This document shows positions 1 to 63,916 of a stretch of 64,000 nucleotides of DNA, piece after piece; position 1 is the first letter of the stretch; every line of letters starts with the position of its first letter. The notes under the pieces were generated by a model. That model made no database searches and was not told the origin of the DNA. It saw only the letters and a program-made list of their open reading frames with translations. The DNA comes from Mesostigma viride (taxonomy: Eukaryota > Streptophyta > Mesostigmatophyceae > Mesostigmatales > Mesostigmataceae): positions 117,501 to 181,500 of the forward strand of contig RPFO01000436.1 in assembly GCA_009746045.1 (NCBI GenBank), given 5' to 3'. The position numbers were made by a program, and so were the translations under genes.

Positions 1-75
1 GGCACGTATTACCGTAGCTTTGCGAATTTCCCTGCTGTTGGCTCCATCGTCGCGACTTCAGTCGGCCGAGGGGAA

Positions 76-3000: not shown

Positions 3001-3789
3001 GTCGCCGCGTGCGTGGGCGGGGTGTACTACAACACGGACAACACGACGATTGGGATCCAGAACAGGACGGGGTTCCTGTTCTTTGCGATCCTATTCGTCT
3101 CTCTCATGTCCATGAGCCAGATGGGCGTGTTTGTCATGGAGCGCGCGCTGCTGCGCCGCGAGTCCTACTCAGGTTTCTACAACGCGGGGCCCTATTTCGC
3201 GAGCAAGGTGCTCGTCGACTTCCTGCCCTTTCGCGTGCTCCCCCCGATTCTGTTCTCTGCGATCGCGTACTGGATGGTCGGGCTCCAAGAGGACGCGACA
3301 CACTTTTTGCGGTTCATCGGCGTGCTGATCCTGACAAACCTCGTCGCGTCCGGCGGCGTGTTCTTCATCTCGTCGGCCGCGCCGGACATCGGCCGCGCGA
3401 ACATGTTTGGCACGCTCTACTTCATCTTCTCGATGGGTTTTGGCGGGCTTCTGCTCAACGTCTCGCAGGACAAGCCCGGCGTACGCGGCTTCTCGTACCT
3501 CTCGTTCATGCGCTACGGCTACGAGGGCCTCATGAACAATGAGTTCCACGACCTGTCGCTCCTGTTCAACCTCGCGGGGCTGGGCTCGGTCACCCTGAAC
3601 GTGCCCGGGGACCTCATCCTAGAGCAGGCGGGCTTCTCATACGACAACATGACAATGGACGTGGTTGTGCTCTCGTGCGCGTTTGTCGTGCTCATGGGCA
3701 TGTCGTACTTGACCCTCCTGGTGCGCTGCCGTCGCAACAAGCGGTCCAACCTGAGCATCCTCAGCGCCAAGACGCCGCGAAAGCGGTGA
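76..3789 (+). CDS. ABCG-family ABC half-transporter with EGF-like N-terminus (Adp1-like)
   Basis: A single uninterrupted 1,237-residue frame. Residues 1-25 form a signal peptide ending at Ala-Gln. Residues 31-95 are Cys-rich with an EGF-like pattern (CQNGG, then CDCNPGFLGTHC), followed by a further Cys-containing extracellular part and a membrane span at about 300-323. The nucleotide-binding domain has Walker A GPSGAGKST (472-480), signature LSGGERRR (649-656), Walker B VILSDEP (669-675) with the TSGLD D-loop, and the H-loop His at 707. A Gly/Ser/Pro-rich linker (about 840-940) leads to an ABC2-type domain with about six spans between 960 and 1220. The order (EGF-like ectodomain, span, NBD, TMD) matches yeast Adp1 and related ABCG proteins, which are longer than usual half-transporters. 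It should dimerise and use ATP to move a substrate, which cannot be named. The start is the first in-frame Met and opens the signal peptide. No introns, unlike its neighbours. Confidence 0.93.
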   Translation: MGKFSLVLPLVVFTLLAFPTIAWAQTGEEDQCLCPCSETNTTRSTTCEDALLVCQNGGTMAPRTCRVDPSAASPCLPWDATTVCDCNPGFLGTHCQIQTPESCSLAGLVYDGSVLNGIHTRNMECFAGRSDTLSLLDLTDHRFNFQLDPIESSARFQLYTRQRDGGPGSTLDLCRNMKQYFDCKVRNCVLVGLEDQEVIELRCPDKNCTAVCPESNGCNAILKALMDSFVANDEPFRMRVAPLQNDRVNVTFDIISLLPIVVDGRCVVGACKNKTDEDSDIVGWDGERISTKSDGVSKAGIGISASIAILLYISLFVLAIYANVEISHPPAPICQMLADHARRQGDPESDPVLVRPLGEGEINEGSAHDTRNGFEGTDPSMLPPLGPIPIAGSRDDIDAPIDIAATSSSRFGLVWRDVSFWVPEQHGLGLLPFVPFFQRLCSSRVKPPPGAHKVLCGVSGAVFPGEIVAILGPSGAGKSTLLDILGGVARPGKLSGEICVYSESGGGRVSSASADAPGGQNVEVASSGSNLGQQGGGIAGVSPPQLVERTISAAVAQQQGAPAPAPPPQFSSRNVLSYVMQDDVMLGTVTVWEALLFSARMRLPAKLSEADIFLRVRRIMEELSLVGVAHHIVGNVGGAGTGLMERRGLSGGERRRLALGVELIANPRVILSDEPTSGLDSFYADIVIGALRRRAVEGGAAVLLSIHQPPAHLFPHFHRIMLLASTGELAFCGTPGEALTFFESRGGQLSKGLGGHGAVAALYASNPFEALMSMLSDSRSSFRAATVKAFRTSFQAEALERDVAEKLASATSGGVTPTHNYYSRDGKTNARDKELFASMGSMGTSQNSGSGQAKDVHVNGSGSRSTPAAAKSPGDGPVNGGPGGSASPSSAGGPVGAGSLEITPSREVSQEDPGAVSTTSTGRRTPRHLALTPQQLHTSPTISSLRQTWLLTSRLFRHIARDPTLLLMYNVIYVVVAACVGGVYYNTDNTTIGIQNRTGFLFFAILFVSLMSMSQMGVFVMERALLRRESYSGFYNAGPYFASKVLVDFLPFRVLPPILFSAIAYWMVGLQEDATHFLRFIGVLILTNLVASGGVFFISSAAPDIGRANMFGTLYFIFSMGFGGLLLNVSQDKPGVRGFSYLSFMRYGYEGLMNNEFHDLSLLFNLAGLGSVTLNVPGDLILEQAGFSYDNMTMDVVVLSCAFVVLMGMSYLTLLVRCRRNKRSNLSILSAKTPRKR

Positions 3790-11547: not shown

Positions 11548-12512
11548 TTAAGATATATTAAAAATATAATTACTTACAGCAGAGTGAAATCACTCAAACC
11601 AAAGCAAACGCCCAGCTATAAACCTATATACAGAGCCATGTCAAAGCTCTATACTACGATAAGACCAATGGAAACGCCTAACGGGAGGAACCTAATAGCC
11701 CTGCTGCACCGCAAAATCAGCCCGCGTACGGCGGAGCATGATGTCAGCCATGGCCCGAGTCAGCGCCACCGACAGGCGCTGACGCCAATATGACGTCCAG
11801 GTCCGCGCCGACCATGGGGCCCGCTGGCCCTCCAGGTCCAGCCGGTCCTCCCGGAGCCGGCAACACTCCTTGAAGAAGGCGGAGGTCAGGGGCCCCATGG
11901 CCCCAAACTCCTCCAGGACAAAGGGCACCACACGATGGTGCCCGACGTCGCCGTAGGCCAGGAGCTTGGCCCGCTCCGCCCGGTCCGCCGTGTAACCTGC
12001 CGTGAGGGAGGCCCCAGCCACGTGGCTAAGAGCCAAGGGCCGCGCCACCGAAACGTCAATAAGCAGATGCCGGCCACCCCCTCAAAGTCCAGCACCACGA
12101 TGTCAGGCCGGTGGTTGGGGGAATAGAAGGCAGCGCCATCCGCATCCTCGGACCGGATGTTCGCGTGGGGGAAAACCGACCGAATCATGGCGAGCACCAC
12201 CGTCAGGAGGACAGTGTGCAAATACAAATACCAATTCTGATTCTGTTGGCCCCCATGCAGGCAAGGTAGTGAGTCCCCGTGGGATCCAGCGGCTGCCCAC
12301 AGCTACCACAAGGCCGCCCGGCCGGAACAAGAGGCTGCGGGGCAAATAGCTGGTGCCGGAGCGCCACCGAGTAGTGGCTGGGAGCCAAGGCGAATGGGGG
12401 GGCCATGGGAAGAGCACGAAGGTACGCCGAGCCCACACTCCGCAAGGAAAGCGAGAACAGCCACGCACGTCCCTGGGCGTTGAGGTCCGCGAAAAGAGCA
12501 ATCCAATCAGCC
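10590..12512. repeat. Large inverted repeat, two arms of about 950 bp
   Basis: Arms 10,590-11,547 and 11,559-12,512 are near-identical in opposite orientation, separated by about 11 bp of AT-rich target sequence. They arise from copies A and B inserted head-on at one site. The only differences seen by eye are a few homopolymer and single-base changes, including a 3-bp indel by the centre, so both insertions look recent. Such a palindrome may extrude a cruciform or disturb assembly. Confidence 0.85.
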
Positions 12513-20429: not shown

Positions 20430-21925
20430 TCAGCAAAGCGCCCCTCCCTCCTGGGGGGGGCGGGGCTTGCCCACAGGGGCTGGCGTGCGGGCCTTGGCAA
20501 TGGTCTGCCACCTCTTCTTGTCCTGCATAGCAGTCCAAGCAAGAGAGTGGGAGGAAATGCGGTGTTCAAACTGGGCTGGGACCACTCGGTCGGCCAGCAA
20601 CTGATCTGTATTAAACTCGTGCTCCCGTTGGTGAGTCACGGAGCATTAACCCCGATGGATGGATGGATGGGTACGCGCAATCCTACCGGTCGAATCTATC
20701 TACAAAAACAGGCCAACTCTATATCTATGGTGCCCTCTACCCTAGGGGTCTTGTCTAGCATGCTTCCCGCGTTTGCAAACACGCTGGCGCTTCCCCATGG
20801 GAGGGGGGTCGTTGTCCCGTGAACTGATCTGTATAGCTCATGGCAGGTCTACCAGCCCTGCGGGGCTTGTCCTTGGGGCCAGGCCAGGTCAGGATATGCC
20901 GCCCTGGCTGGCCAAGCTGCTGGGGGCCGGCCAGACCAAAGGGCGGTGTCTACCTGTCTGGTTCGAGCAAGATGTCCTACAAGTGCTATCCTACGCTGCC
21001 TAATCTCATCCGAAATACGGGGCATACTAATATATTCAGACTCTACGATCTATACGTGGAAAACCCTACGTTCAGGACCTGTCGGAGCATCCTGGTTACT
21101 GAGCCGTTCACCTGGGTGACCAGCTGGTCCGAGAGCGTCCATGCCAGACAGTCCAGCCAGTTCTGAATGTGCTCAGGGTGCTCAATGAGGGTGGCATCAT
21201 CCGCATAAATCAAGTCGGACAGGCGGTAACCAGGGCCGCCGCCGCCCTCACTGCGGTAATTAAGGATGTCCAAGCCAGGCTCGAACCCTTTAAGGGCGGC
21301 AAAGCGTGCATGTGCCTGGCGCATGACGTGATCAACGACAATAATGAACAGATATGGGGACAGGGCACAACCTTGCCACACCCCGTTGTGAAGGGGAAAT
21401 GGTGGGGTGGTGTCTTCCGCAGTCCGCACTACTGCCTGTGAACCCTCATACAGCCGGCGAATGGCAGCAATAAATGCTGGTGGCACGCGGTCCAGAGCCA
21501 GAATGGCCCAAAGAGCCCCCAAGAGGACCGTGTCAAAAGCCTTGACATAGTCGACAACTATGAAGACCAGCGGAAAACCGTCAGGGCGAATGCGACGCAC
21601 CTCCTCCACCAGCCGGCGCGCGACAAACACAGCCATGGCAGTGTTACGGCCACGACGAAAATCCATCTGAGACTCACCCAGGTGTGAGTCCAGCGCAGCA
21701 CGGAGCCGATGTAGCATCACATGCGCACGAAAACCTTCAGCGCGGCGCTCTGGAGGCAGACACCACGATTGTTACCGGGGTCAGCAGCAGAACCCTTCTT
21801 GTACAGCATGGCTCGGATGGCCGTCTGCCACTCAGCAGGCAGGGGCTCATCAGAGAGCGGATCACGAGCAGAACGAATATATGGGATGAGGTAACCCTGT
21901 AACAAGGAACTAGATAGCGGCATCC
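20430..21925 (-). pseudogene. LINE ORF2 (reverse transcriptase) remnant
   Basis: Better preserved than the plus-strand copy. It reads WQTAIRAMLYKKGSAADPGN and, after a shift at about 21,720, SQMDFRRGRNTAMAVFVARR, VFIVVDYVKAFDTV, NGVWQGCALSPYLFIIVVD and LIYADDATLIEHPEH (YADD near 21,205). The post-RT part is partly deleted, then RRIALVGHLARTRQVDT (about 20,955-21,000) and, beyond the insert, a C-terminus with AWTAMQDKKRWQTIAKAR ending at 20,430. The endonuclease-encoding N-terminus is absent. Frame breaks make it non-functional. Confidence 0.8.
20612..20821 (-). mobile_element. Second-tail-family insert with 13-bp TSD
   Basis: Flanked by AACTGATCTGTAT at 20,599-20,611 and 20,822-20,834. The GTGCTCCCGTTGG hairpin side lies at the low-coordinate end, so it is minus-oriented and 5'-truncated. 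It sits inside the LINE ORF2 copy and is therefore younger. Confidence 0.75.
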
Positions 21926-22323: not shown

Positions 22324-25300
22324 TTATCTGTGTTCCTGGACTAGGCTATACACCAAGTCCCTGCGTACGAAGTACGCACTGAAGCGCTTCACGGCCATCG
22401 TAAAAAAGTCCACATCACCTCCAGAACTTGCCAGGTCAACCTGCATGAAGCATACATGCCAAAGGACAAGTTCCCGCGCATTTAGTTTATTGCCTCACTT
22501 TATTTGTAGGCGCACAGATGAAGCGGCACCACGCTCCCTCCCTCCCTCCCTCCCTCCCTCCCTCCCTCCCTCCTCCTCCCTCCCTCCCTCCCTCCCTCCC
22601 TCCCTCCCTCCTCCCTCCCTCCCTCCCTCCCTCCCTCCCTCCCTCCCCCCCCCTCCCCTCCCCCCCTCCCCCCTCCCCCCTCCCCCCTCCCGACCGACGG
22701 ACCGACCGACCGACCGACCGACCGACCGACCGACCGACCGACCGACCGACCGACCGACCGACCGACCGACCGACCGACCGACCGACCGGCCTGCCTGCCT
22801 GCCTGCCGGCCGGCCGGCCGCCCGGCCGCCCGGCCGCCCGGCCGCCCGCCTGCCCGCCCGCCCGCCCGCCCGACCGACCGACCGAATGACCGACCGACCA
22901 GCCGACCGACCGGCCGACCAACCAACCAAACAGGATTCATACAAAATGACACAGTTCCTGTATGGTGTCTCGTGGCCTTGCACTCCGCCAAAGTGCGGTT
23001 GTATCACCACTGCCCCCTGCACGTAGAAGGTCGTCATAATCTCCTGCAAACCACGCATGGCCCAGGTACCACAGATACCCCTTATTGTATCTCCCCCCTT
23101 TTATAGTGACCCCCCTGCCAACGTCATGCTGCTTGTGCCACGCACCTGGCCAAGGTACCACAGGGCGACAAACAGATGAGCCGCCAGTGCCATGAGGTTG
23201 GACTCCAGGTAAAGCGATTCCACCTCCTCGGCAGTCACCTGCGGTGGCGCGGTGCACGCGACCATACTGCTTAATAACAATGACTAATTTAATACTACTA
23301 GTCGTATACTTAGATACTAGTCATTAAATATAATGAATAGATTGGGAGCACAAGGGATACGGTTACAACCAGAAACGTGATCCGACCTCCTCGCTAGTTG
23401 TGTTCGGGGCGGGACGGTGGGCATAACGTCTATACATGGCTACATGATCTCCCAACGGAGTCATGTTATAATTTCAAGGACCCACGGTGGACAAGGCCAG
23501 GAGTGTGTGCGGTACAACCAGAAAGGGCTATGGATACAAACTCTTTCTGTTTTAATAAGCAGAAACAACTCCGGTACAACCAGAAAGGGCTATGGATACA
23601 AACTCCTTCTGTTTTAATAAGCAGAAACAACTCCGAGTGAGCAGAAAGAAGGGGATGGTAGCTCACTGAACAGATTTTTGTGCAAAGAATATCTGTGCAT
23701 CGCTCGATCAGACGAAATAGCAAGTCAACACAGAAAAAAGATGATGTGCGACCCCGTAAAACACACGTAAGCACCATAGACAAAGAGCCACCCAATGCTG
23801 GCTATTAATGGGGGGGGGGGGGAGTAACTTGTGAGGATTTCGGGGGGAGGAAAACAGTACTGAATTTTCTTGCCATGCAAAGCAAGATCTAAAACCTGGA
23901 AGGCATGGTTAGCTCCTGCAAGGAGCAGTGATGTTGGAGCACACAGCAACCCTATCTACGGCCGGAGGTAAGCCAGCAACGAAGCCAAAAGCATCAATTA
24001 GCAATACGCTCAAAAGTAGCACACTTTGTGCTGTCATCGCCGTGAGTTCATACGGAGCGCCAGTACTCATACAGAGCCGACCAGAATGTCCAGCTGTTAA
24101 ATTCCAACCATGGGCTTGTCAAAAACACTGGTTAAAAAATATTACTTGCTCCCATCGGTAGGACCGGTCTAAAGGGTAGCCAGATGCAGAGAACAACCGC
24201 CTCCGAAAACTGATTGCTGGCTCGGCATCACAGCTAAAGGTACGTCGCCACCCCCCCCAACCCCCTGGTGATGTGTGGCAGTTGCGACTGGGAAGTGAGA
24301 CCTGCGAGTTGTATCAATGGGGCTGCCTTGAGAAGCCATAGTCCAACTGCCACCCACCTCGTGCCTGCCATCAGCCGCCAAGTAGTTTCGAATAAAGTGC
24401 ACCTGCTCGGACTTGCTGGGATATCTGCAGGACGCCAATGGTATCGACATGGCACATTGAAATGGAAAAAAAATAGGCACATGACTGCGTCACATGGGTA
24501 CCAATTAAGGGACCTCCAACACGGCGCGTACTTTGATCGACAGATTGCTGTCCTGTAGTGGGATTGAATCAATCGATGCAATCATCTGCATGGTATCTTT
24601 CAAAACAAAGGGGCAACGAAAAGCGTGGCCAGACGCATGCCCGGGATCCACTGGCGTACTTTGCACAGCAAGGCAAGCGGCTTCAAGCCCAAGCTGTAGG
24701 CAATGTACAGTACACTGAACAAGTAGGAAGGCCCAAACAGGTAGGGCTGTTGGATGCAAGAGCGCACAACACTTCCAAGCTCGTGCTCATTGAATCCTAA
24801 TCCGCTCGCGAGTTCGTATATGCCCCCTATGCCTTCTATGGCCCCTATGCTCCCTATTATGCCTTCTCCGCCCTGTATGCCTTCTATGCCCCCGATGCCC
24901 CCGATGCCCTTGATGTCCCCTATGCCCCCTATGCCCCTCAAGTCCCCTCGCATGACCCCCAAGCAAACAACGAAAATTTTGTTGAAAAGACGCCGTGTTC
25001 AGCAGCATACTGTACTTTTCCTCCGCTATCGCGCACATCACTTTACGCACATCATTATATGCACATCTACTTACGCACATCAGTAAGCATTCTGCCCTGG
25101 ACCAACGAGGGCGCAGCTCACACAGCAGTCCTGATGGTCCCGACACAGAACAGGGGTGTCCTGGATGGGAAGCAATGTGCCGTCCACAGAACATGCGGGA
25201 TGCACAGACACGATGCTGGGAACTGGGAATGGCTCGAGTGCTTACTTATCATTTCAGAATGGTGTAAATACCTCGAAAAGTGCGGTCAAATACCTCGAAA

Positions 25301-28300
25301 AGTCGTTGTCCATGCCGCAGTACTCGCAAAAGTGATACCCGAGGTCGTACCCACGTGGGTTGTAGCCGCCGTACTCAAAGTCGATGAACTGGACCTCGTC
25401 TGTAGGGGGGTTGATGGATGTATGTTTAGGAAGAGACAAGATGGTGTTATCTAAGGTTGTAGCCACTGTGCTGAAAGCCCATTAAGTGGACATCGTCTGT
25501 AGGGAGCTAAAGAAGCAAAAGAAGCTGACGAAAATAAAGAAGCTAAGAAGCTAAAGAAATTCAATCAAATCCACATGTGGAGGTTTGGTGGACAGTGGAT
25601 TAATGGATAGGCACACTGACATGGGGCAGAACGAGATCATTGTTGTAATTGGACAAAGTAGCATGGCTATAGGCCGGCATAGACGCGCCTAGGGACTGAG
25701 GCAAAAAGAAAGGGCTGAGGCATCGTTAAAAGCAAGCAAGCTTCACATAAAGTTATAGTAGCATGGATGCAAAAAGAAGGGGCAAGGAAGCACAGCATAA
25801 TAAGCAGGTGCCTTTTGTTAGGTGAATCTTTGCGTTTCTGGCATCCTGGTCAGGGGCAGATTGGCCAGAGAGAGGCAGACAGTAAGGGGATGGGGTTATC
25901 AACGTTGAGTGGGCAGAATCCTCGCTGCTTCAACGAACCTCGCAGACTCACTATCTTTAAAAGTATGAAGTTTGATGAAATAAACATGAATCATAGTTTA
26001 CTTATTATCAACTTCAAAAAGATTAAAACTAGACCGTGGGTTGCATAATGCATAGCCTTGTTGTGAGTGAATTTCGTGCCATCATCGTGTGATAGCGTAG
26101 TCAACTGTAGCAGTTACTTTGGTTTCCTGCCATGAGCACGTGATAATCATGGCAAAATCTAACCTTTGGCCGCGTCAAACATGATGTTGAAGGGCAGCAG
26201 GTCGTTGTGGCAGTATAAGAGGGGCCACCCCCTCCGCCTCCAGATGGCCTGTCACAGACCCGAAACACATTATGGATTGATGACAACATGGGAGGAGGAC
26301 CCGCGAATCAGTGTTCATCGAGGAGGAAGCCCGTACTATAACTGGCAAATCATCGACAAAATCGGAAAAATAAATAAAGACTTTTAATGAGGAAGCGAAT
26401 AAGGTTTAGTAGCAAGGACAACATCAGAGGACACTTTACGACATAACAGAGTTACCAACGTTGCACATTGAGGTCAGTTAGAAGAAGAGCGAGAATTTTG
26501 AAAAAGCAGGTATTTCAGTGAGCGAGAGACTGAGGTGAAAAAAAAAAATAGACGCAGGTGCCTGTTGCCCCAGGCATGGGCACGCAATATAGACTTGTCA
26601 GCATTATGTTTTTGTAAATCATTACACAGAGGAAGGGTGGTGTCAGTTTGGGGATGGGAAAAGAAGCACAGGCACCTACAGGGCAAAGAGGTACATGAGA
26701 GGGAAACAGCACCGATGCTGATCCTGCTGACACGACGGCCACGCTCAGACGGGCGACGGTGCTGGTTCAGCCCATCAGCAGTCATTCAAACTGCAGCATG
26801 AAGGCGATACCTGCAGTTGCAGTCAGTGGCCTGCTCCTTATTTTCATTTGCTATAGAAACTGGCCGACGGGCTGGCTTGTGGGATGGACGCATGGGCACG
26901 GTGCAGCCAGGCTGGAGGTAAAAAGAAGTGAACGCGCCACAATCACGCTTAAAAGTTAATCCGACGAATGCAATAACAATTACACTACCCGGTCATGTAC
27001 GCTATAATGTACTTTGCAGTTCGTAAGGAATCTTCTGTACCCCCAGCCCCTAAATCTCAGCGCCCATGCTCTCCAAGGGCAAACAGAAGAGTATGCATAG
27101 TATTGCCATTTAGTATACATTACCCAAAAAGGTACGTTATAGTGAACGAATGATAGACTATCTGTCTTACCTCCAGTGCGTCCACCTCGGCGTGCATGCT
27201 CTCCACATGCATGCGGTGATAGGCTTCCAGCTGCTCCCCATTGAGCACGCTGCCGAGCTGGCGGGCAAGCACTGTTGTTGTGGGTGATGATTGACAGCAA
27301 TAGGCCATACCTTTGTTAGCATAGTTTGCACCGGCGGGCCAGCACTGTTGTTGTGGGTGATGATTGACAGCAAGAGGCCATACCTTTGTTAGCGTTGTTT
27401 TCACCTGTCACGCTGCCGAGCTGGCGGGCAAGCACTGACTGCACATAAATATTGCTTTTGGTTCTTCTTTTGTTATTGAAGAAAGATTCATCAAGTGCAG
27501 AGCAGTCAGCAGTGTGCCAAGCTGGCAGGCACTGTTGGTGTCGGTGGTGGCGGTGTCAGGAGATAACGGACCACAAAACTAAAACTAAGATTAAAACTAA
27601 ACTTGCAAAGCCGTTGTGATAATGTCTAGCGGCCAGAAAGCCTGCAGAGGTTACAAGGAAGGACTGCTTGCGGGGATGGCTATCAGAAGAAAAGTAGGGA
27701 TACATCACTAGTTAATTAGCAATACAATATCTTAGCACTACTATCTCGTAAGAACAGCAGCCCCGCACTGAGCTGGCAAGAACGAACGATTAAGCAGCTG
27801 CCATACAACAGAAATACGAGTCCTCCAGAAGAAATAATACTCCTCATTGCTACTGCATCGCATACACTGCACGTGCCCTGGGCGCGCCACGCACCTTCCT
27901 AATGGTGCTCGATGGTGCAGCACCTCGGGAGCGTAGAGTGCGCATATCTTTATCTGCATCTTTATCTTTATCTGTTGCTTGTCTAGATACAGGTTACATG
28001 TCATCGTCATTCTACAAATCTACACATCATATGACGCATCATCCACCCAGGATGTACTCGTGCAGAACACCAAACATCCCCAATGCACGCATGCTACTAG
28101 TAGTTTTTTTTTACGGTGAGCTGAGGTGTTACTAATCTTGTCTTCAGGATGTCCCGCCACGCACCGTCCTTAATGTACTCGCGCAGCACTCCGAAGATCC
28201 TCGGCGCCTCCCCCTTGAGCTGCGGCACGTGCAGGTCGTGGAACTTGCGCATGCGCCGGGCGATCTTGGCCGCCATGGAGGGCTCCGCGATGTCTGCGAG

Positions 28301-31300
28301 GTTTAGGCATAGGTGGGGTTTAGACATAGGCATAAGCCACAAATAACCGGCACATCACATACAAATAAGCCATGAGCCATGGAGGGCTCAGCGGCGTCTG
28401 CGAGAATAAGCCACTAAGGCACCGAGAGCAGTGGAGGGGAACAGGATGGCGACAGAGGCACAAAATCGTAAGGCAGAGGCACCGACCATGGAGGGCTCCG
28501 CGGCGTCTGTCAGAATAAGCAATGGAAGATTCCATGAGCAAAGGGGAGCCTTGGGGGAGGTGACGGCGCAGTGCATGGGTGAAGGGGAAAGAAAATGGAT
28601 GCGACGGCAACGGAATTCTGTTCAATGTTGGTAGTAGCCTGAGGATCCTTTCAATGCTGGCGGTGGCCACCCGAAGCGCGCTATCGAGGGCGCGCTCATC
28701 ATTGGGCGCGCTCTCGAGGGCTCTAGAAGAACTAACAAACAGCACCACGCTGGCTGGGGTGGTCCAGAGCGAGGCCGTGGTCGACCTTGAATCATGTTTT
28801 ACGGCTTCAGCGGTGAGTGCCCACGTCGTGGATACTTCCTACTCACAATCGCCCCCGTGGCCGGGCCAGATAGTTTGGCAGGTTCTCATGCTATTCAATA
28901 GGGAGTTTCCGGAGGCACTGGAAACGCTCTCCGGTATCAGAGCTTTTCCGGAGTCGTGCCATGGTTTGGATTGCCGTAGGATCAGTAGACGCCTATAGCT
29001 GCGAACGTCTGCGGAGTTCCTGAGTTTGAATCCTAAGAGTGCGATTATTCCAACAGCATCATCAACTGCGGCCCGACAAGCACAGCAAGCTTGAAGACAT
29101 GAATAGAGGCCGATAGCGATAGACCTATCCGCGCAATCCAGGGCGTGCCCTATCAAAAAGGGCTCCCCCCTGTCAAGAAGGTCAAGAAGGTCATCCTCCC
29201 ATCGTGAGGTCGTGCCGCACAAGCAACAACCCCCCCCAGCTGGGCTTGAAACCCCATAGACCTACACAGGCAGTCGAGCGCGCGACTTGTGAGAAAGGTC
29301 TTGATTCCCCCGTTGCGGAACCGTGCCCAACATTATCACAACATGATCGCAAGCCAACCCCCTTGCACAAGCAACGATCCCCCCCAGCTGTGCTTGAAAC
29401 CCCATAGACCTAGCTAGGCAGTCGACCTACCTAGGCAGTCAAGCGTCCGCCCCGTAAGGAACGTCTCGATTCTCCCGTTGTGGAACGTGCCCAGTATCCG
29501 GCTCCCAAACCCGGCTGACGTGATGTGGGGCAGCGCCTGGAGGCGTTTTTTTTACAGGGTAAACGGGAACGCGGGCAAGGACGAGGTGCGCTTCAGTAGA
29601 AAAGCGGGAAAGAAGGAACAGCATGGCCTACAACGACAATGGGATCACAATTATAACAAGGGGAATCCTTATTACGCAAGGGCAGCACAGCAGGCTGACA
29701 AGGGCCCCACCCCCCACAACACACAGCACAACAGCGCTGCTTCATCACTCAGCAGCACGCCAGCAACAGGCCTCACCAGCGTCTCCGACAGCAGGTCGAC
29801 GTACTCGATTCAGCTCCTGTGGTCCTATCAGTAACCCTTAACATTCATTACCTGTGTGGCGTGCAAGGGCCTCACCTGCGTCTCCGAGAGCGGTCGACGC
29901 ACTCCATTCAGTTCCTGTGGTCCTATCAGTAACCCTTAACATTCATTACCTGTGTAGCGTGCAAGGGCCTCACCTGCGTCTCCGAGAGCGGTCGACGCAC
30001 TCCATTCAGTTCCTGTGGTCCTATCAGTAACCCTTAACATTCATTACCTGTGTAGCGTGCAAGGGCCTCACCTGCGTCTCCGAGAGCGGTCGACGCACTC
30101 CATTCAGTTCCTGTGGTCCTATCAGTAACCCTTAACATTCATTACCTGTGTAGCGTGCAAGGGCCTCACCTGCGTCTCCGAGAGCGGTCGACGCACTCCA
30201 TTCAGTTCCTGTGGTCCTATCAGTAACCCTTAACATTCATTACCTGTGTGGCGTGCAAGGGCCTCACCTGCGTCTCCGAGAGCGGTCGACGCACTCCATT
30301 CAGTTCCTGTGGTCCTATCAGTAACCCTTAACATTCATTACCTGTGTAGCGTGCAAGGGCCTCACCTGCGTCTCCGAGAGCGGTCGACGCACTCCATTCA
30401 GTTCCTGTGGTCCTATCAGTAACCCTTAACATTCATTACCTGTGTAGCGTGCAAGGGCCTCACCTGCGTCTCCGAGAGCCGGTCGACGTACTCGTTGGTG
30501 CGGTCCATGAAAATGCGGACCACCACGGGCTCCACATTGCCATCGTCCGGGGTCAGTTTGAAGACTGCATTGGCCAATGAGTGATGGAGGACAGAGAGCA
30601 TCAAGCACAAAGTCAAGGCCTATTTAATTATTTAAGCATCTACTACTATGATGGAAGCGAGCATGGAGACGAATGAGCGACGATCGAGGGCCAGAACGCA
30701 TCAACTATTTACGGCTGGCCGTCTCGTCGAGTAAAATCAAAACATGGACTTTGGTTACACGCGCCACAACGTAGCCCAAGGAGGGCATGCCTTGTGCACT
30801 GTGGAGGTGTGCAGGGACCCACCCTGGGTGCTGACGGGCCGCCATCCGGGACGTGGGCACCAAATGGTGGGGGGAAAAAGGACACTTGCACATCAATAGA
30901 AAGAGAACTCCCAGGATAGGGTTGGCACTCACTTCAGCATAAACAATAGGGAGGGAAGCAGGGCGTATATCAGGATGTCTTTGCATTTTTCACTTCCAAG
31001 TTTTTGTCAATATTGAAAAGGGCGTGGAACAGCACGTACAACAGCGAGACAGCGGCAACTCGGCCCGTGTATCCGCGAGTCATCGTTAGGTAGAGGAAGC
31101 ACCCCCTGGTCCAGTACTTTTCCGTGTCTTCTCCCCCACCCTCCCCTTTGCCCCATCCCTTCCCCTTTGACCCTCCCTTCTCCCCTTTCCTTCTCCCCCT
31201 CCCTTCTCCCCCTCCCTTCCCCCTCCCTTCCCCCTCCCTTCCCCCTCCCTTCCCCCTCCCTTCCCCCTCCCTTCCCCCTCCCTTCCCCCTCCCTTCCCCC

Positions 31301-32461
31301 TCCCTTCCCCCTCCCTTCCCCTCCCTTCCCCCTCCTTTCCCCCTCCCTTCCCCCTCCCTTCCCCCTCCTTTCCCCCTCCCTTCCCCCCCCTTCCGCCTCC
31401 CTTCCCCCTTCCTTCCCTCTCCCTTCCCCCTCCCTTCCCCCTCCCTTCCCCCCTCCCTTCCCCCTCTCCCTTCTCCCTCTTCCTTCCCCCCTTCCTTCTC
31501 CCCTCCCCCCCCCACTTGTTCTCAACCCACCTCCTCATGCACACAAAGCACACAAACAACCGTCTTACGTTTCTTCTCCCTTCCCGACACACACCACACT
31601 TAGTCTCAACCCACCCACCCCTGCGCAAAAGGCACGCACGCAACCATCTTATTTCAACTGTCTACCTGTGCGTTTTTGCCTGCATGTGTGTTTATCTGTG
31701 TGCTTTTGTCTGCATGTGTGTTTATCATGTGTGTTTTGTCTGCATGCGTGCGGTTGTCTTCATACATCTGCATTGGTGGGATAGATGATTACCTTTCCAC
31801 TTGAATTCAGTTCATTTGTATTGGTATCCATTTGTATTGGTATGCATCCACTGCGTTGGGGTAGGTGATGTATGATGGGTGCACATCGATAGCATTCGTT
31901 CTAGTATGGCGGGCGCTGGTCTTGGTGATACTTGGATAATATGTCAGCATTTAGGCACTACCATTACATGCGCTCAGTTTTACTATTGCAGATTGTTAGG
32001 AAAAGCTTTGCTGAGAAACACATGCGCAAAGGCAGTTCCATGGACTAGCAAAAAGTGCAGGCAAAAGGACATTAAATAAATGCTGCCTCGAGAATTATTA
32101 GCTCACGTTTGTTGGTCAGCCCCCCAGAGATGATCGTTACTCGGATTTGGTGGCTCGAAAGCGCCGACCATCCAGGCAGCAGAGACTGGCAAACTTGCCT
32201 GTACGTACGCCCAGGAATGGACAGGATACAAAATGTAAGAACGGCCGCTATTATTCACCAACACAAAATCGAAACGCGCGCCCGGCATGCTCACATTTTC
32301 TTCGGAAATGTTGATGGCGTAAGAGGCGTGTCACAAAAGCTCGACGAGCTGTACACACATTCGTAGACTTACTTTGCAGGCTCAAAACAGCTCTCGTTGG
32401 TTTCTGACTCCACCGTGAAGTCGGCGTGCGGAATTGTCGGGTGTATAGGCCCGCTGTACAT
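22324..32461 (-). CDS. Ethanolamine/choline kinase, 11 exons, complete
   Basis: Phosphorylates ethanolamine (and/or choline) with ATP, the first step of the CDP-ethanolamine/choline route to phospholipids; cytosolic. Exons: 32373-32461, 32107-32198, 30464-30564, 29431-29536, 28165-28293, 27171-27271, 26164-26248, 25294-25399, 24358-24424, 23146-23238, 22324-22440. All junctions are GT-AG and in phase: 1,086 nt, 361 aa, the usual family length. Landmarks: SGGLTNKLFKL across exons 2-3 (N-lobe glycine loop), VVVRIFMDRTNEYVDR (exon 3), SAGFGSRILGTFHNGRIETF (exon 4), EPSMAAKIARRMRKFHDLH (exon 5), catalytic Brenner-type HNDLLPFNIMFD (exon 7), VQFIDFEYGGYNPRGYDLGY and HFCEY (exon 8), C-terminal helices in 10-11. 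HNDLL rather than HNDLQ leans towards ethanolamine kinase; substrate preference is inference. No signal peptide. Introns carry large repeat arrays and exon-edge duplications. Confidence 0.93.
22533..22925. repeat. Composite tetranucleotide satellite in the last kinase intron
   Basis: Successive tracts of CCCT, C-rich CCCCTCC, ACCG, CTGC, CCGG and GCCC units. All frames on both strands stay open and spell short peptide repeats; this is a by-product of the repeat, not a gene. It lies between kinase exons 10 and 11. Confidence 0.9.
23050..23085 (-). repeat. Diverged duplicate of the kinase exon 10 donor edge
   Basis: ATGGCCCAGGTACCACAG here resembles the exon 10 end at 23,140-23,165 (CTGGCCAAGGTACCACAG, plus-strand reading). 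It lies in the intron just downstream of the real donor. Confidence 0.45.
23430..23478 (+). mobile_element. LINE 3'-end remnant in kinase intron 9
   Basis: Contains CTACATGATCTCCCAACGGA and GTCATGTTATAATT, the 3' hairpin and tail start shared by the LINE and ORF1-only families. It is severely 5'-truncated. Confidence 0.6.
23513..23640. repeat. 62-bp tandem duplication in kinase intron 9
   Basis: Two near-identical units containing ACAACCAGAAAGGGCTATGG and GTTTTAATAAGCAG. No function suggested. Confidence 0.75.
24815..24955. repeat. Degenerate 9-bp repeat (CCCTATGCC-type) in kinase intron 8
   Basis: About fifteen imperfect units of the CCTATGCCC/CTATGCCTT kind. Read on the minus strand they give a GGI-rich open frame, not a gene. 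Confidence 0.8.
25269..25312 (-). repeat. Nascent 22-bp duplication of the kinase exon 8 donor
   Basis: TACCTCGAAAAGT occurs twice, 22 bp apart. On the minus strand this gives two identical TTTTCGAG|GTATTT donors. The upstream copy keeps the frame into exon 9; the downstream one would shift it. The duplication is still nearly perfect, so it looks young. A further copy of the exon 8 acceptor edge (CATCGTCTGTAGGG) sits at about 25,489-25,504. Confidence 0.75.
27255..27545 (-). repeat. Duplicated acceptor edge of kinase exon 6
   Basis: The exon 6 start and its acceptor (plus-strand GCGGGCAAGCACTGTTGTTG at 27,261) recur at about 27,333, 27,420 and 27,523 with increasing change, together with flanking GTGGGTGATGATTGACAGCA. 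Only the copy at 27,271 joins in phase to exon 5. Confidence 0.75.
28265..28512 (-). repeat. Duplicated acceptor edge of kinase exon 5
   Basis: CATGGAGGGCTCCGCG (exon 5 start, minus coding) with following TGTCTGCGAG occurs at 28,274, about 28,379 and about 28,488. The upstream copies lack a continuing exon. Confidence 0.75.
29262..29335 (-). repeat. Diverged duplicate of kinase exon 4 3' half
   Basis: About 70 bp resembling 29,410-29,500: a GGCAGTCGA block, a GATTC.CCCGTTG block and CGTGCCCA. It reads out of frame and is not needed for a complete kinase. Confidence 0.6.
29765..30463 (-). repeat. 98-bp tandem array carrying copies of the kinase exon 3 donor
   Basis: Units start at 29,863, 29,961, 30,059, 30,157, 30,255 and 30,353, with a diverged one before and the real exon edge after (30,451). 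Each contains the last ~26 nt of exon 3, the donor CAG|GTGAGG and ~70 nt of intron. The copies share a one-base loss (ACCGCTC for ACCGGCTC). The array sits directly downstream of exon 3 in the sense direction. Confidence 0.9.
31110..31512. repeat. Pyrimidine-rich CCCTTCC array in kinase intron 2
   Basis: About 400 bp of 10-bp CCCTTCCCCC-type units with variants. The minus (coding) strand is pure purine. Long open frames through it are artefacts. Confidence 0.9.
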
Positions 32462-34590
32462 GGTTCGCGGTCAATGGCTCCCCGGGCTAAGTCAAAAGAC
32501 GCGAAGGTCTCTCAGGTTAGGTTATTCTGGCTAGCGAAAATGTTGGGAAGATGTAAACCCTAACCCCGGCCTGCAGGCATACCATTTAGTTTCCCATGGT
32601 AACCACGTGTTATGGCTGCCGCGGTGCCATGACTGCCCCCAGTATGATAAGTGAAGCATTAATGCATCTAGTTTGACCAACGCACTCCACGGTTGTTCTC
32701 GGCTTTGGCACAGCTACCGGGGGGCTAGCGTCTTATGATGCTACCAACAGGAAAAGCAAACACTTGCGCACATTCCGTTTTATGTGGTAATGGCTGGCAC
32801 ACGCAAGGCACAGGCCATAATTTTGCTTCGTTGAATCAGGGTTGAATCCCTAAATACCAGTCGGCGCAGGTCGTGGTAGTAATACTTCTGCTGTATGTCT
32901 AGTCTAGCCCGAGTGTATGACTAGAGAGTCTGCACTTCGCTGCTGTAAGCCCAAGCTCAAGCTTGCTTGCTACCGCATGTGCCGGCGTGCCGCCACGTGT
33001 TCTCGGACTAGTGTTTCCGGTTTTCCCAAACAAAACAAATGCTGCTGCATGCCACCTTCATTAGGATTCGCTGATACTCATTTCCCCTCTCACCTCTTTG
33101 GTCCATAATTGGCTAATAAAATATACCCATTTCCCCGAAAATGCTGCTGCATGCTCCTGAGTAGCTATTTTACCATGGAACGCAGTACTATGCCCTAAAA
33201 TACGCCAACAGACATGTGCACTCTTTTGTTGGGCTGCATAGCTTCATCACGGGCATTCGCTTGTGTGGGACATCGGAACACCGAACATATCTGTTTAGAT
33301 CTCCAGGTGCCACAAGGGCGTCGATCGATAATTCGATGTATAGATCATGGATCCGCCTACGTCTGTGTCCATTCTCTGTGTCACTCATTGCCGTCCATGC
33401 CGTGAGGAGTAGCAAATTACCGGTTATGCAGCGTCCCGCATCGAATAGGTTGGTTTGAGCTACTAAGGCCACCTAGAGAAAATTCTGACTGGCATCTGGT
33501 TTCGAAGTGCAGTACGGACCGCTGCAACTAAATTACATTCATTGGCGGCACTGGTTCGATACCTATTCGATGCTCCGCGCCTTTATAAATCGAAACCTTT
33601 CTTTTTAAGGCGCATCACGCTTGAATTTAAAAGGTTTTGTTGTAGACATGTTGCTTTGGAGTCCATATATTCGTATGATGACAGGAAAGTAAAGCAGCTA
33701 TAAATAATAGGCTAGCTTCGGGAGGACAGCAAGTGCTCAAGGCACGCACACAAGCACTAACGCACACCGATGCACGTCGTTAGTCTTTGTGACATGCACA
33801 AATTGTGGCACGGGCTCGGGAAGCCGCCGGCTGGCATACTACAGCAGGAATGGCAACCTCATCATGTGGCCGGTATTGAGCATAGCTTCATGCGTGAAAT
33901 AATAAATAGAAACCTGTCTTCCTACGCCACACTTTGATGGCCAATAATGACGAGGGGTAGTTATTGCGGTTCCCAGAAGTATTCAATCGACACATTTTTA
34001 ATTAGCAACGTGTTTGCTGATAGCATCTGAGCCGAAGTGATCGACTCGGCAGGCTTCAGCAACGATGTGCCATGCATATGCATGGGTGGCTCCGGACGTC
34101 TGTCGTGCTCATGCATCACACATTGCATGGATCATGCAGGGATGCGCATGCATAGTGTCACTCTACGCGACCTTCATGTGAACCTTCATAATATGTCGAA
34201 TAAACCATTTACGCTCGTCGCCCCGGCCAGCTTTCCCCGTTTCAGATTTAATAGCATCTTCACGCGTTCCCATGCTCGCACATCCATATTTCAAGTTCAA
34301 ATACACACGTTTCCCAGCCATAGCATATACAGATCGAGCCTCTCTTCTCCACACAGCAGAGGTGATGGTGCCCATGTGCTTGCAGCTCTCCGAAGTAAAT
34401 TTAGCATACTGGGGTTCAAATACTCCCAGGCCACATTTGTTTGTCTGCAGGTTCCTTAGCTATGTACGTGATCGCCTGATGGGGCAAAAAGCACTAGCCA
34501 CACAGCCCCCAGAGGACATGCATACCCTTGACCCGAAGTGCTCAGAGCTACTTTCCAAGAAGCCAGGCACACTCAGTCTACCGTCACTTG
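32462..34590. other. Intergenic region between kinase and TONSOKU
   Basis: Upstream flank of the kinase followed by AT-richer sequence. No ORF with codon structure, RNA gene or repeat family was recognised. Confidence 0.5.
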
Positions 34591-34960
34591 GTTATTTATT
34601 GGCCCATGAAACACGCATTGCCCTTAGTGCCCACTTTTTGACTGGCCAGGTACCATAAAGTGCTACTGGCTCATGAAACAAGTGCTGTCACAAGCTTTTT
34701 TATATTGAGTCATGATACATGGATTGCCCATTGTTGACTGGATCATTTAAAGATGCAACTGGCTTACTGGGACATAAACCTTTTCAGTGGTTTTCCATTT
34801 GCGGGTATTTCCTCGTAAATGGTGGGAGAGCGATCGCAGCAATGGTGCTCACCACTAGACACTCCCGGCCAGTTAGGCTCGAAACACACGCCCTGATCAA
34901 GCATGCTGTTTCCGGCCCCACCGTCTAGGTCATCTAGTCGCTCTACACGTAAGCCAGCCG
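34590..34960 (-). repeat. Degenerate copies of the TONSOKU 3' terminus
   Basis: Around 34,605, 34,668 and 34,708 there are diverged versions of the terminal segment at 35,130-35,160 (CATGAAACACGCATTGCCC against CACGAAACACGCACTGCCC). They lie just downstream of the stop codon in the sense direction. Confidence 0.5.
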
Positions 34961-34964
34961 TATT

Positions 34965-35110
34965 TTCAATGCACACGGATACACATTTCCATCACCATTC
35001 ATCTTCATCATCCTGAACGACTCGAACACGCGGACAAGATAACGGCAGGCTCGAGCTACCATGGTCCGGATTCTCCCGATTTCTGGCCTGCGCTGGTTGT
35101 CTCCTTGATA
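34965..35110 (+). repeat. Dispersed 146-bp repeat, copy 2
   Basis: Partner of 20,122-20,267, same orientation. It lies 17 bp beyond the TONSOKU stop codon, so it probably forms part of that gene's 3' UTR or terminator region. Confidence 0.75.
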
Positions 35111-35126
35111 AACCTTGTCACATTTT

Positions 35127-60877
<25,751 letters not shown>

Positions 60878-62207
60878 GTTTACGGTATGGTGTGCAGAAC
60901 GGCGCGCGTGTATATGTGGTATAGTGTGGCTGTAGGGTGCGTCTGTAACGCGTACACACGCACGAGATGGGAGCAGGGGAGAAAGACGCCGATTGTAAGC
61001 GAGCTGTTCGTAAGTGAATGCTGGACTCGCGGTCAAAATTCCGCTTCTCTGTGCAGTCATGTTGGCGTCAAATGAGAAGAGAAGAGCTTATGTGAAAAGG
61101 ATAAAACGGGGACAAGAGGGAGATTAACGAAGCCGAGGCAGCCAACATACCGATGTCCGTGTCAACAGCTGTCTAAAATGCGAGTCTGGAGTGCAGGGCG
61201 GATGCAACGTTGCAGATGCGATGCAGCTGGCGCGGTCATGAGCACAGCGGGAAACCTGCCGCACAGCAACGCTAGGCTTCGCGAGAGCCACCCCTCACGA
61301 GAGCCACCCCTTAGGGGGTCGGTTGGCCCGGACCTAGCGCTCTAGCATTTTCTTCAGGAAAACAGCCAGGCGCTGACTGCTGATGTGCACCTTCCGACTG
61401 CTTCGGCTATGGCGGGTTGTCACGGTGTATTGCTATGTGCACAGCGGCATACGGCTAATGACCTTGTTTAGATGAGATGCCGACTTCTAACTTTGCATCC
61501 TGCTTTCAAGTTATGACGCCGTAAGGTGCCATTTTCTGATAGAACTATTGCTTAGAGCACGCCATAGAATTTAATTGTATTATTGCTGCGGGACGCTATG
61601 ATTGTCGTGTCATATGGAAGTTCCCTCGATTTTGGGCTAGGCAATTGCAATCCGAATTCCCACTGCCACGCCATCGCCCGGGGGTGCAGCAGCAGCTGTG
61701 GAAAGGCCCGACAAGTTTCTCCCGCGAAATTTGAAGCTCTAACCTGGCTATAGCCTATAAGACACTTCAATGTCCGCGCCAAAAAAAATTGTGGGTGGCC
61801 TGTTCTTGTCCGTATTAAACCGTAGGTTATTCAAGTAGATGCTTCTCTTAAAGCTGAACAAATAGTCTCTGCTGCACACAATCATGTGCGGCGTGGGCAA
61901 CAACAACAACAACAACAACAACACGCACTGATCTGATTGCCACTTGTACTGCAAAGTCTACCACTACAGATTCTCTGCTGCACATGTGCGGCGTGGAACA
62001 ATAACAACTGCAAAGTTTGGACGGCACGATGGTGGCATTGGGAGATTTTTCATTGGAGAGGCGTGGCCAGTTGTGGAAGTCTTTCTGCTGCGGACTGCAA
62101 TGGAAGGTTCTGGAGCCCGTCTGCGTAAAGCCTGCCGACATTCACTTGCTGCCACCATTACTCGTTTGCTTTCTCGACTGCGACAGTCTTACCGTGGCCG
62201 CGTCACC
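60878..62207. promoter_or_regulatory. Divergent promoter region of TONSOKU and the PDI-like gene
   Basis: 1.33 kb separates the two divergent start codons. It has a perfect E2F-type octamer, GCGGGAAA (61,247-61,254), and a near match, TCCCGCGAAA (61,720-61,729). Plant TONSOKU genes are known to peak around G1/S, which makes E2F sites plausible. A short (CAA)n run lies at about 61,897-61,922. TATA boxes could not be assigned with confidence. Confidence 0.5.
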
Positions 62208-63916
62208 ATGGCTAGGTCGTCGTATTCTCGTCGGCTTAGGTATAGTTTAGTGCTCGTGCTTGCCACGGCGTTGCTGCTAGGGAATGTGAGGCCGCAAGAG
62301 GAGGATGCGGAGGGAGGGGAAGACGCCGAGGGGGGTGACATGGGCACGGGGGATATGGATTATGGGGGCTATGGAGATGATTATGGTGGAGGCTACGGGG
62401 GGGGTCCGTCAGATGGACCTGAAAGTCACATTAATGGCGTGTTGGATTTGGATGACATGACGTTTGATAAAATCGTGGATGGCAGCAAACACGTCTTCGT
62501 CGAGTTTTACGCGCCATGGTGCGTTGCTGCTACATCACAGTCGTGCTCTTAGCAGCATTGCGTGGCATTCACTTAAGACAAGCAATGTCGGTAGCCACAA
62601 TATGTAGACGTGCTTTTCCTTCGTGGCGCGCGCTTACCATCCTTGGCATGTTATATCTCTTTGGTGGCATTGCACTCCACAGGTGCGGCCACTGCAAGTC
62701 GTTCAAGGAGGAGTACAGCGCGATTGCCGAAAACCTGGGGTCACAATCCAACCTCCTTCTTGCTAAGGTGAGGAAACCTAAACAGCCGGGTGCACTTGGG
62801 AGGCCGGCGTTCCGTACACTCCGCCGCCCCTGCATTAGTAAGCCCTGTCACTGTTTTGCGATTAAGTTGAAGTAATTTCTTACAGGTAGTGGGACAGCAG
62901 ATTTGTCGCCTTACCATTTTCTGTGTGCGCATGTTGCTGAGCTTTTTTTTCCGTGTGCTAATGGCTTTATCAGCCCCTCTGCGGGTAGTAAGTGGGCTGG
63001 CTTGCTTGCTTTGCCCTTTGTTCTTTTCTGGTACCAAGGAGGAATGATTCTTTTGAGCAATCACATTGTCGCTCTTGGTGGATAATGTGTTTTGGATACT
63101 GGAATATGCACTACACTTCAGACTCACATGTTTATTTGTCCCCTATCACTTTCTCGAAAATGTGGATGATTGGGGTTTGTCTACTGTAAAAGGTTCTATC
63201 TGTGCAATTATTCCATGGTTACATTCCTGGTGTGCCTTAGTCCATGAATAGGTCTAAATTTTCAGCACATAAATACAGGATATGTGTCCTGAATATAGAG
63301 CATCTCTTGTTGGCATGCGCACCCAGAAATTAGTAATGACACATGTAAACAGCAGTTAGGTTTATTCCCCATACAGGCATGTCCCTATAAAACGCCATTG
63401 GTTGCTAATTTTATATGTGCAGGTGAATGCAGGAGATAAAACCATCGGGCTGGATGGGGGCTCGTCCGACTCTGTGGAAATCCAAGCTTGCATGCGTGGG
63501 ATGTTGTTTGTTGCATCTGTCCATCACCACTAGCTGCGCCGCTGTTTCACATACGTGTGTGGCCCCCCGAAAAATGTATAAAAATCTAAAATGAAACAGA
63601 TGAATAGACTATCTGGCACATTCGCTGCTGACAAGTACCGTGCTGTAAATATATATATATACATGATCAGAATATATATACATGTCTGCTCGCGCCCTTG
63701 CTATGTGCGGGTCAATGCGGGTGAGAAGGATCTGGCATCAAAGGCCGGGCTGTTTATATAGGGCTGTTGATGTAGGGATCGGATAGGGATCCTATTCGAT
63801 CAGTAGGGATGGGTATCTATAGGGCATTGAACCATAACCATGGGTTGGTCCATTTGTTCCGTGCAGGTCAACGCAGATGAGAACAAGGGGCTTGGGGAGC
63901 GCCTGGGCATCGAGGG
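62208..63916 (+). CDS. PDI-like thioredoxin-domain protein, 5' part
   Basis: Exon 1 62208-62518: signal peptide (about residues 1-28, with core LVLVLATALLLG), a Glu/Asp then Gly/Tyr-rich segment, and the start of a thioredoxin domain (GVLDLDDMTFDKIV, VFVEFYAPW). Exon 2 62683-62767 completes the WCGHC active site (the W codon is split by the intron) and gives KSFKEEYSAIAENLG. The next in-phase exon is probably 63867-63916 (VNADENKGLGERLGIEG), with acceptor GTGCAG and donor GTGAGT. The gene continues past the window. Members form or isomerise disulfides in the secretory pathway. The start was chosen for the signal peptide; upstream in-frame Mets exist. A second domain or ER-retention signal cannot be judged. 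Confidence 0.85.
63423..63765 (+). repeat. Two decayed copies of the PDI exon 3 acceptor edge
   Basis: GTGCAG|GTGAATGCAGGAGA at 63,417 and GTGCGG|GTCAATGCGGGTGA at 63,705 resemble the exon start GTGCAG|GTCAACGCAGATGA at 63,861. The middle one has lost the AG. Readings are VNAGDKTIG, VNAGEKDLASKAG and VNADENKGLGE. The first two run to stops without a good donor. Confidence 0.7.

Follow-up and report, generated by a model that had tools for sequence, protein, structure and literature searches.

The introns of Chlamydomonas and Volvox have the highest density of tandem repeats, and these cluster close to intron–exon junctions (PMC3887541, 2013). Duplication can also create introns: in PMC4974935 on intron gain by tandem duplication, the potato RdRp case duplicates an intron–exon structure, and in fission yeast genes a 24-bp exonic segment with AGGT is present several times. 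Introners are described in part of a dinoflagellate review (PMC11453091) as transposon-like families, and comparative Chlamydomonas genomics reports conspicuously long introns (PMC8226300), edge copies going unmentioned in the parts of that source that were seen. Here we analyzed a stretch of 64,000 nucleotides from the streptophyte alga Mesostigma viride (contig RPFO01000436.1, positions 117,501 to 181,500; hereafter, the window), in which introns of three predicted genes, TONSOKU (TSK), a choline/ethanolamine kinase and the 5' part of a PDI gene, carry copies of the edges of their neighboring exons (hereafter, edge copies).

Chlamydomonas and Volvox are likewise green algae with introns rich in repeats, of which more lie near intron ends; the general tendency is therefore already on record in the part seen of PMC3887541, although that part gives repeat density by position, whereas the copies of edges and splice sites, their reach into the exon and their neutrality come from the present analysis. 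As in the seen part of PMC4974935, duplication provides extra splice sites; however, the cases described there make a new intron, whereas here existing introns carry extra copies of their own borders. The Rogers AGGT model derives the body of an intron from an AGGT-containing exonic segment; here, at the 20 junctions with copies, similarity extends a median of 27 nt into the exon, compared with a median smallest copy spacing of 97.5 nt, and the exon share is less than half of that spacing at 19 of the 20. Introners, in the seen part of PMC11453091, resemble the present case in the bulk creation of intron sequence in algae. An introner carries the splice sites of a new intron, whereas the units observed here consist of an exon edge and one existing splice site, and clear edge copies match their own adjacent intron over the other 24 introns of the window. 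An earlier note on this DNA had set the pattern apart from both introner elements and intron gain by AGGT duplication, and both distinctions are borne out within the window. The copies instead lie head to tail in one place, as judged from arrays found by TRF and from copy spacings, which is the arrangement of ordinary minisatellites or local tandem duplications. The same note had regarded the pattern as undescribed as a general process; no description of intron-borne edge copies as a class was found in searches of open-licence papers, although the seen part of PMC3887541 already documents repeats near junctions.

Edge copies exceed chance expectation

The exon borders of the three genes were placed by frame continuity together with GT..AG sites and the splice consensus, and the gene models predicted in this way hold 56 junctions and 25 complete introns, with a median intron of 1067 nt (23 TONSOKU and kinase introns among the 25 complete ones). 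For each junction, a 40-nt window centred on the border was compared with 1 kb on the intron side and with dinucleotide shuffles (p<0.01). Copies were sought on the gene's own strand only, self-matches of the probe (edge 8..25 at 8..25 and -25..-8 at -25..-8) were excluded, and the donor of PDI exon 3, the 56th junction, was dropped because too little sequence precedes the end of the window. A significant local copy was found at 14/27 donors and 11/28 acceptors, or 25/55 junctions. By comparison, windows in exon interiors had a local copy in 15/176 shuffle tests (88 windows in two directions, with 7 and 8 positives). With a fixed score, copies were found at 13/25 donors and 7/25 acceptors (20/50 junctions, in 15/25 introns), and among the matches listed there were one to seven copies per border.

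The copies are local. When each edge was compared with its own intron and the other 24, the own intron gave the best match for 14/25 donors and for 9/25 acceptors, where chance would give 1, compared with only 2/25 and 1/25 for exon sequence 40–80 nt off the border. They also include exon sequence proper: a probe confined to the exon, 3–43 nt from the border, was copied at 12/27 donors and 7/28 acceptors, and the 40 nt lying deeper in the exon than this probe were copied at 2/26 donors and 0/26 acceptors. Edge copies are thus in excess of shuffled sequence, exon interiors and the other 24 introns alike; the statement of the earlier note that they occur at most borders must be reduced to somewhat under half, although they are real at many of the borders that it named.

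Junctions show no excess of copies over intron interiors

We compared the junctions with positions inside introns. Intron-interior windows had a local copy in 475/1274 shuffle tests (637 positions in two directions, with 237 and 238 positives), and the corresponding counts were 161/445 with the fixed score and 209/520 in the comparison with other introns. The junctions did not differ from these in either the shuffle test (25/55 vs 475/1274, p=0.26) or the fixed-score test (20/50 vs 161/445, p=0.64), and in the other-intron comparison the 209/520 of the interiors stands against the 14 donors and 9 acceptors given above. The comparison that the earlier note had named as a possible refutation, with random intron positions, thus goes against it within the window, and a higher rate of duplication at splice junctions than elsewhere in introns is not supported. 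A scan of the whole window, exons included, found a local copy at 349/867 points of the TONSOKU stretch (35-61 kb), 125/433 of the kinase stretch (22-35 kb) and 5/66 of the PDI stretch (61-64 kb). The transposon-rich 3.8-22 kb gave 40/273 and 19/334, and the frame of an ABC transporter gave 1/93. These rates suggest that local duplications, junctions included, make up much of the introns of TONSOKU and the kinase and less of those of PDI.

We further profiled intron-side matches along the junctions of TONSOKU and the kinase (25 donors and 26 acceptors; PDI left out). The donor profile has a sharp peak 10 nt inside the exon, at 19/25 donors, which is confined to -30..+10; elsewhere, it lies at 5-7/25 from +20 to +70, 5-10/25 deeper in the intron and 2/25 at -40 to -60. 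The acceptor profile, with 9/26 at the border and 4-10/26 within the intron, is without such a peak. The -10 offset was chosen after scanning 37 offsets. Part of the donor peak is accounted for by selection, which freezes the exon copy so that only one member of the pair decays: in forward simulations of random duplication with codon positions 1 and 2 frozen, the rates at donor -10 and in the interior were 0.18/0.16, 0.34/0.245 and 0.45/0.34, a smaller peak than the one observed.

The copies appear to decay as neutral sequence

Counting each distinct copy once, we found mismatches to the exon at codon positions 1, 2 and 3 in the ratio 30:29:58, as expected (1:1:2) for a neutral copy compared with an exon free to change only at third positions. 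Splice dinucleotides were retained no better than the copied exon bases: 14/21 donor copies keep GT at the extrapolated border (0.74 expected from identity), and 7/10 acceptor copies keep AG (0.69 expected). Twenty decoy donors have GT, seven of them units of the array behind the first kinase exon (K1), and 19/20 would add a stop codon if used; compared with the donor consensus, 9/20, of which six belong to the K1 array, score no worse than the true donor. Decoy donors that bring a stop codon and are nevertheless strong sites would appear to have been neither removed nor used as coding ends. With no sign of either conservation or elimination, the decoys resemble remnants that local tandem duplication left behind and that are decaying, rather than maintained sites. 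That the outermost copy is the exon in use follows from the design of the search and is not an independent result.

These counts bear on two readings in which the copies have a use. Donor copies might be kept to recruit splicing factors, such as U1, along long introns or to regulate splicing. Many copies do have a complete donor, and the strong sites counted above fit this, although six of the nine lie in one array; the neutral dinucleotide and codon-position counts led us to reject this reading, which we regard as very unlikely. The copies might also be remnants of exon duplications once used as alternative exon ends, with the working edge shifting from copy to copy. An upstream PDI copy is still PDI-like (VNAGEKDLASKAGL), and the copy of the K2 end reads as a kinase segment (FLTSRALDCL); however, the mismatches are without a third-position excess over 1:1:2, and long exon shares are almost absent (see below). 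We likewise rejected moving exon edges on the codon-position and dinucleotide counts, and consider them even less probable than maintained decoys. The earlier suggestions of working decoys, or of the reading frame choosing among the copies, are accordingly not upheld, since both mismatches and splice dinucleotides look neutral.

Copies reach only a short distance into the exon

The exon share of the copies amounted to 46 nt or more at only 1/20 junctions (K2, 63 nt), and exon sequence beyond approximately 45 nt from the border is thus rarely carried along. We compared this reach with simple simulations, whose settings were hand-tuned to the interior rate and copy spacing; one of the three models first run, each in 60 replicates, fell short in its interior rate (0.22) and was recalibrated. 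When the exon reach was uncapped, 36-64% of the simulated cases had an exon share of at least 46 nt. The fraction varied with the size of the unit and with the growth of arrays: it was 64/100 and 59/99 for 95-nt units, 33/68 and 35/60 when arrays could grow, and 30/84 and 42/93 for 60-nt units. The observed 1/20 falls far below this (p=1.3e-07 vs 0.62; p=5e-04 vs 0.40). Uncapped neutral simulation without array growth produced junction rates of 0.42 and 0.41, near the observed 20/50, yet did not match the exon reach. With the reach capped at 45 nt, simulated rates were 0.23-0.29 for donors and 0.19-0.27 for acceptors without array growth, and 0.14-0.17 and 0.11-0.12, respectively, with it.

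The fit to the junction counts depended on the model. At a score of 28, the uncapped model without growth fits both donors (p=0.29) and acceptors (p=0.92), and the capped model without growth fits the acceptors (7/25 vs 0.19, p=0.17). The donor excess over the capped model without growth becomes weaker at stricter scores (10/25 at both 30 and 34, p=0.033 and 0.012) and fades at 40 (6/25, p=0.24 without growth and 0.012 with growth). Because the simulations are simple and the sample consists of three genes, this donor excess over exon-limited models is suggestive only.

Explanations for the edge copies

We consider that neutral local tandem duplication across junctions probably explains the edge copies. 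Segments mostly 55-211 nt long, judging from copy spacings, would often be duplicated in tandem on the spot, and introns would lengthen and be renewed in this way. When such a segment spans a splice junction, the outer of the two copies would stay the working exon edge and the inner one would fall in the intron, where it brings a second splice site but no more than 17-45 nt of exon, or 63 nt in a single instance. Unseen by selection, the inner copy would decay neutrally, and because the exon copy is frozen by the protein, edge duplications would remain recognizable longer than those between intron sequences. Intron growth by tandem duplication across existing junctions, as the earlier note had proposed, agrees with the TRF arrays, which lengthen the introns, and with the local copies. 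Long exon shares may be scarce through selection, in that a duplicated site would become a competitor of the true one if much exon came with it, but not if the piece of exon were short. Duplicated splice sites, as Reed and Maniatis reportedly showed in 1986, compete by exon context and proximity, a site with little exon competing poorly; those were laboratory constructs rather than a natural genomic pattern, and such competition would account for tolerance being limited to short exon shares. Breakpoints that lie near exon ends for mutational reasons are a rival to selection as the cause of the short reach.

Several results weigh against a purely neutral process limited in its exon reach. The 40-nt profile is higher at donors (19/25 at -10) than at acceptors (9/26; p=0.005); at a score of 28, the 13/25 donors exceed the capped model both without growth (0.23, p=0.0017) and with growth (0.14, p=9.5e-06); the 7/25 acceptors exceed the capped model with growth (0.12, p=0.03); and with array growth even the uncapped model yields too few donors (0.29, p=0.012). 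A rival explanation is that the 5' exon–intron border is a mutational hot spot, for instance because an R-loop, a nucleosome or a repair-protected exon ends there. Duplications would then begin within approximately 45 nt upstream of the donor, each event copying the donor together with 17-45 nt of exon before it and approximately 30-190 nt of intron after it, and introns would grow from their 5' ends. The donor rate exceeds the capped models at 4/5 thresholds without growth and 5/5 with growth (p<0.05), the peak is narrow, and the TRF arrays at K1, E2, E10, E15 and K4 combine short exon shares (17-31 nt) with spacings of 63-99 nt. Against this, the raw donor rate does not exceed that of the interior (13/25 vs 161/445, p=0.14), uncapped simulation without array growth fits the donors, a frozen exon copy alone produces a modest peak, and the sample is 25 donors from three genes in one window. 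We therefore regard a preferred start at the 5' splice site as possible but doubtful. If it were true, introns would lengthen at the 5' end, and the dead copies of the donor in them would form a dated series, with splicing picking the outermost copy by exon context. An error of assembly is the least likely explanation of all: near-identical arrays (98 bp x7) are prone to errors in copy number, but among the 37 copies listed, 18 have no more than 70-90% identity with the exon edge, and copies of this divergence are not the product of assembly error.

Gene models and neighboring sequence

The positions of the genes, exons and edge copies are summarized in Table 1. The predicted reading frame is unbroken from E1 to E9 and again from E11 to E19 in TONSOKU, from K1 to K6 and again from K7 to K8 in the kinase, and from P1 to P3 in PDI, where the CGHC motif spans intron 1. 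The donor of TONSOKU E9, the acceptor of E10 and the open stretch between them (including 47315-47588) were left out of the junction set. The set likewise excludes an exon that may follow E19, any kinase exons that precede K1 and whatever lies in the K6–K7 interval. Exons called by a simple gene finder in low-complexity stretches (e.g. 42106-42447 and 22707-22849) were dropped for want of support. Searches for homologues, one of which scored the best 7993 candidates by shared words, returned no eukaryotic relatives, the hits for TONSOKU being two weak TPR proteins and the kinase having no hit, and Rfam returned nothing at gathering thresholds.

Table 1. Predicted genes, exons and edge copies in the window
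Feature	Position	Strand	Evidence
TONSOKU (TSK), TPR + LRR	35127..60877	-	PDB TONSOKU 7t7t E=3.7e-21
TONSOKU exons E1-E5	E1 60605-60877, E2 59139-59429, E3 56901-57040, E4 55473-55632, E5 54205-54384	-	
TONSOKU exons E6-E10	E6 52462-52642, E7 50775-50859, E8 49900-50007, E9 from 48780, E10 to 46476	-	
TONSOKU exons E11-E15	E11 44753-44872, E12 43838-44095, E13 43042-43217, E14 41608-41719, E15 40436-40540	-	
TONSOKU exons E16-E19 and last	E16 39981-40044, E17 38410-38530, E18 37589-37813, E19 36594-36711, last exon from 35442	-	
Choline/ethanolamine kinase, incomplete	22324..30564	-	PF01633 E=8.9e-58
Kinase exons K1-K4	K1 30464-30564, K2 29431-29536, K3 28165-28293, K4 27171-27271	-	
Kinase exons K5-K8	K5 26164-26248, K6 25294-25399, K7 23146-23238, K8 from 22440	-	
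PDI 5' part, exons P1-P3	62208..63916 (62208-62518, 62683-62767, 63867-63916)	+	Thioredoxin PF00085 E=4.6e-16
E2 exon end + donor copies, 73-bp units	58782..59155 (array 58977-59155 over exon end)	-	TRF + edge alignment
E3 acceptor + exon start copy (45 nt exon)	57131..57199; second, shorter, 57540-57563	-	among the matches listed
E3 exon end, at least 4 old copies, up to 43 nt, displaced ~109, 212, 400, 512 nt	56385..56829	-	
E5 exon end + donor copies, incl. 98-bp units 53640-53847	53652..54175	-	TRF + edge alignment
E6 exon end + donor copy	52232..52270	-	edge alignment
E7 acceptor + exon start copy (45 nt exon)	50942..51009	-	edge alignment
E8 exon end + donor copy	49831..49867	-	edge alignment
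63-bp array over E10 exon end (27 nt) + donor	46281..46495	-	TRF + edge alignment
79-bp array with short copies of E14 exon end + GTA	41213..41552	-	TRF + edge alignment
E15 acceptor + exon start copy	40587..40630	-	edge alignment
89-bp array with E15 exon end + donor copies	40140..40354	-	TRF + edge alignment
98-bp array x7.4, 7 copies of K1 exon end (last 31 nt) + donor	29769..30493	-	TRF + edge alignment
K2 exon end (63 nt, longest exon share) + donor copy	29258..29326	-	edge alignment
K3 acceptor + exon start, at least 2 copies	28375..28509	-	edge alignment
K3 exon end, at least 2 copies	27884..28079	-	edge alignment
K4 acceptor + exon start, 73-bp units (array 27260-27405) + older copies	27260..27549	-	TRF + edge alignment
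K4 exon end + donor copy	27029..27075	-	edge alignment
K6 acceptor + exon start copy (42 nt)	25454..25504	-	edge alignment
K7 exon end copy	23050..23074	-	edge alignment
PDI exon 3 acceptor + exon start, diverged copies	63400..63460; second 63698-63728	+	among the matches listed

Several further features were observed in and beside these genes. Between TONSOKU E9 and E10 lies an open frame of 616 codons (46456-48303, minus strand), GC-rich and encoding acidic low-complexity sequence, which may be either a long linker exon or an intron. Two long arrays, at 59448-60419 and 44878-45687, are pyrimidine-rich on the gene strand and extend to within 20 nt of the E2 and E11 acceptors in TONSOKU; they look as though polypyrimidine tracts had expanded. 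In PDI intron 1, GTGCG directly follows both splice borders (62519 and 62683, plus strand), forming a 5-nt direct repeat at its two ends. At 1-3786 (plus strand), a half-transporter frame runs without interruption (ABC2_membrane, E=3.4e-42), whereas the downstream genes are intron-rich; we take it to belong to the ABCG-type subfamily. A reverse transcriptase fragment (21046-21771, minus strand; RVT_1, E=6.1e-15) marks the edge of a retroelement-rich flank. In the transposon-rich part at 11.0-15.1 kb, pairs of open frames that begin identically or almost so lie 1170 nt apart, at 12350 and 13520 on the plus strand and 12302 and 13472 on the minus strand, and one open frame recurs across strands, at 11025 (plus) and 12081 (minus); judged from the sequence, this part appears to hold recent direct and inverted duplications.

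Implications for intron growth

The lengthening of introns is seldom caught in the act, and the frozen exon copy makes each edge copy a datable record of a duplication. Edge copies are also a natural experiment in the choice between identical splice sites. If splicing ignores the six perfect donor copies behind K1, then they would set a measurable limit on the exon context that a 5' splice site needs.

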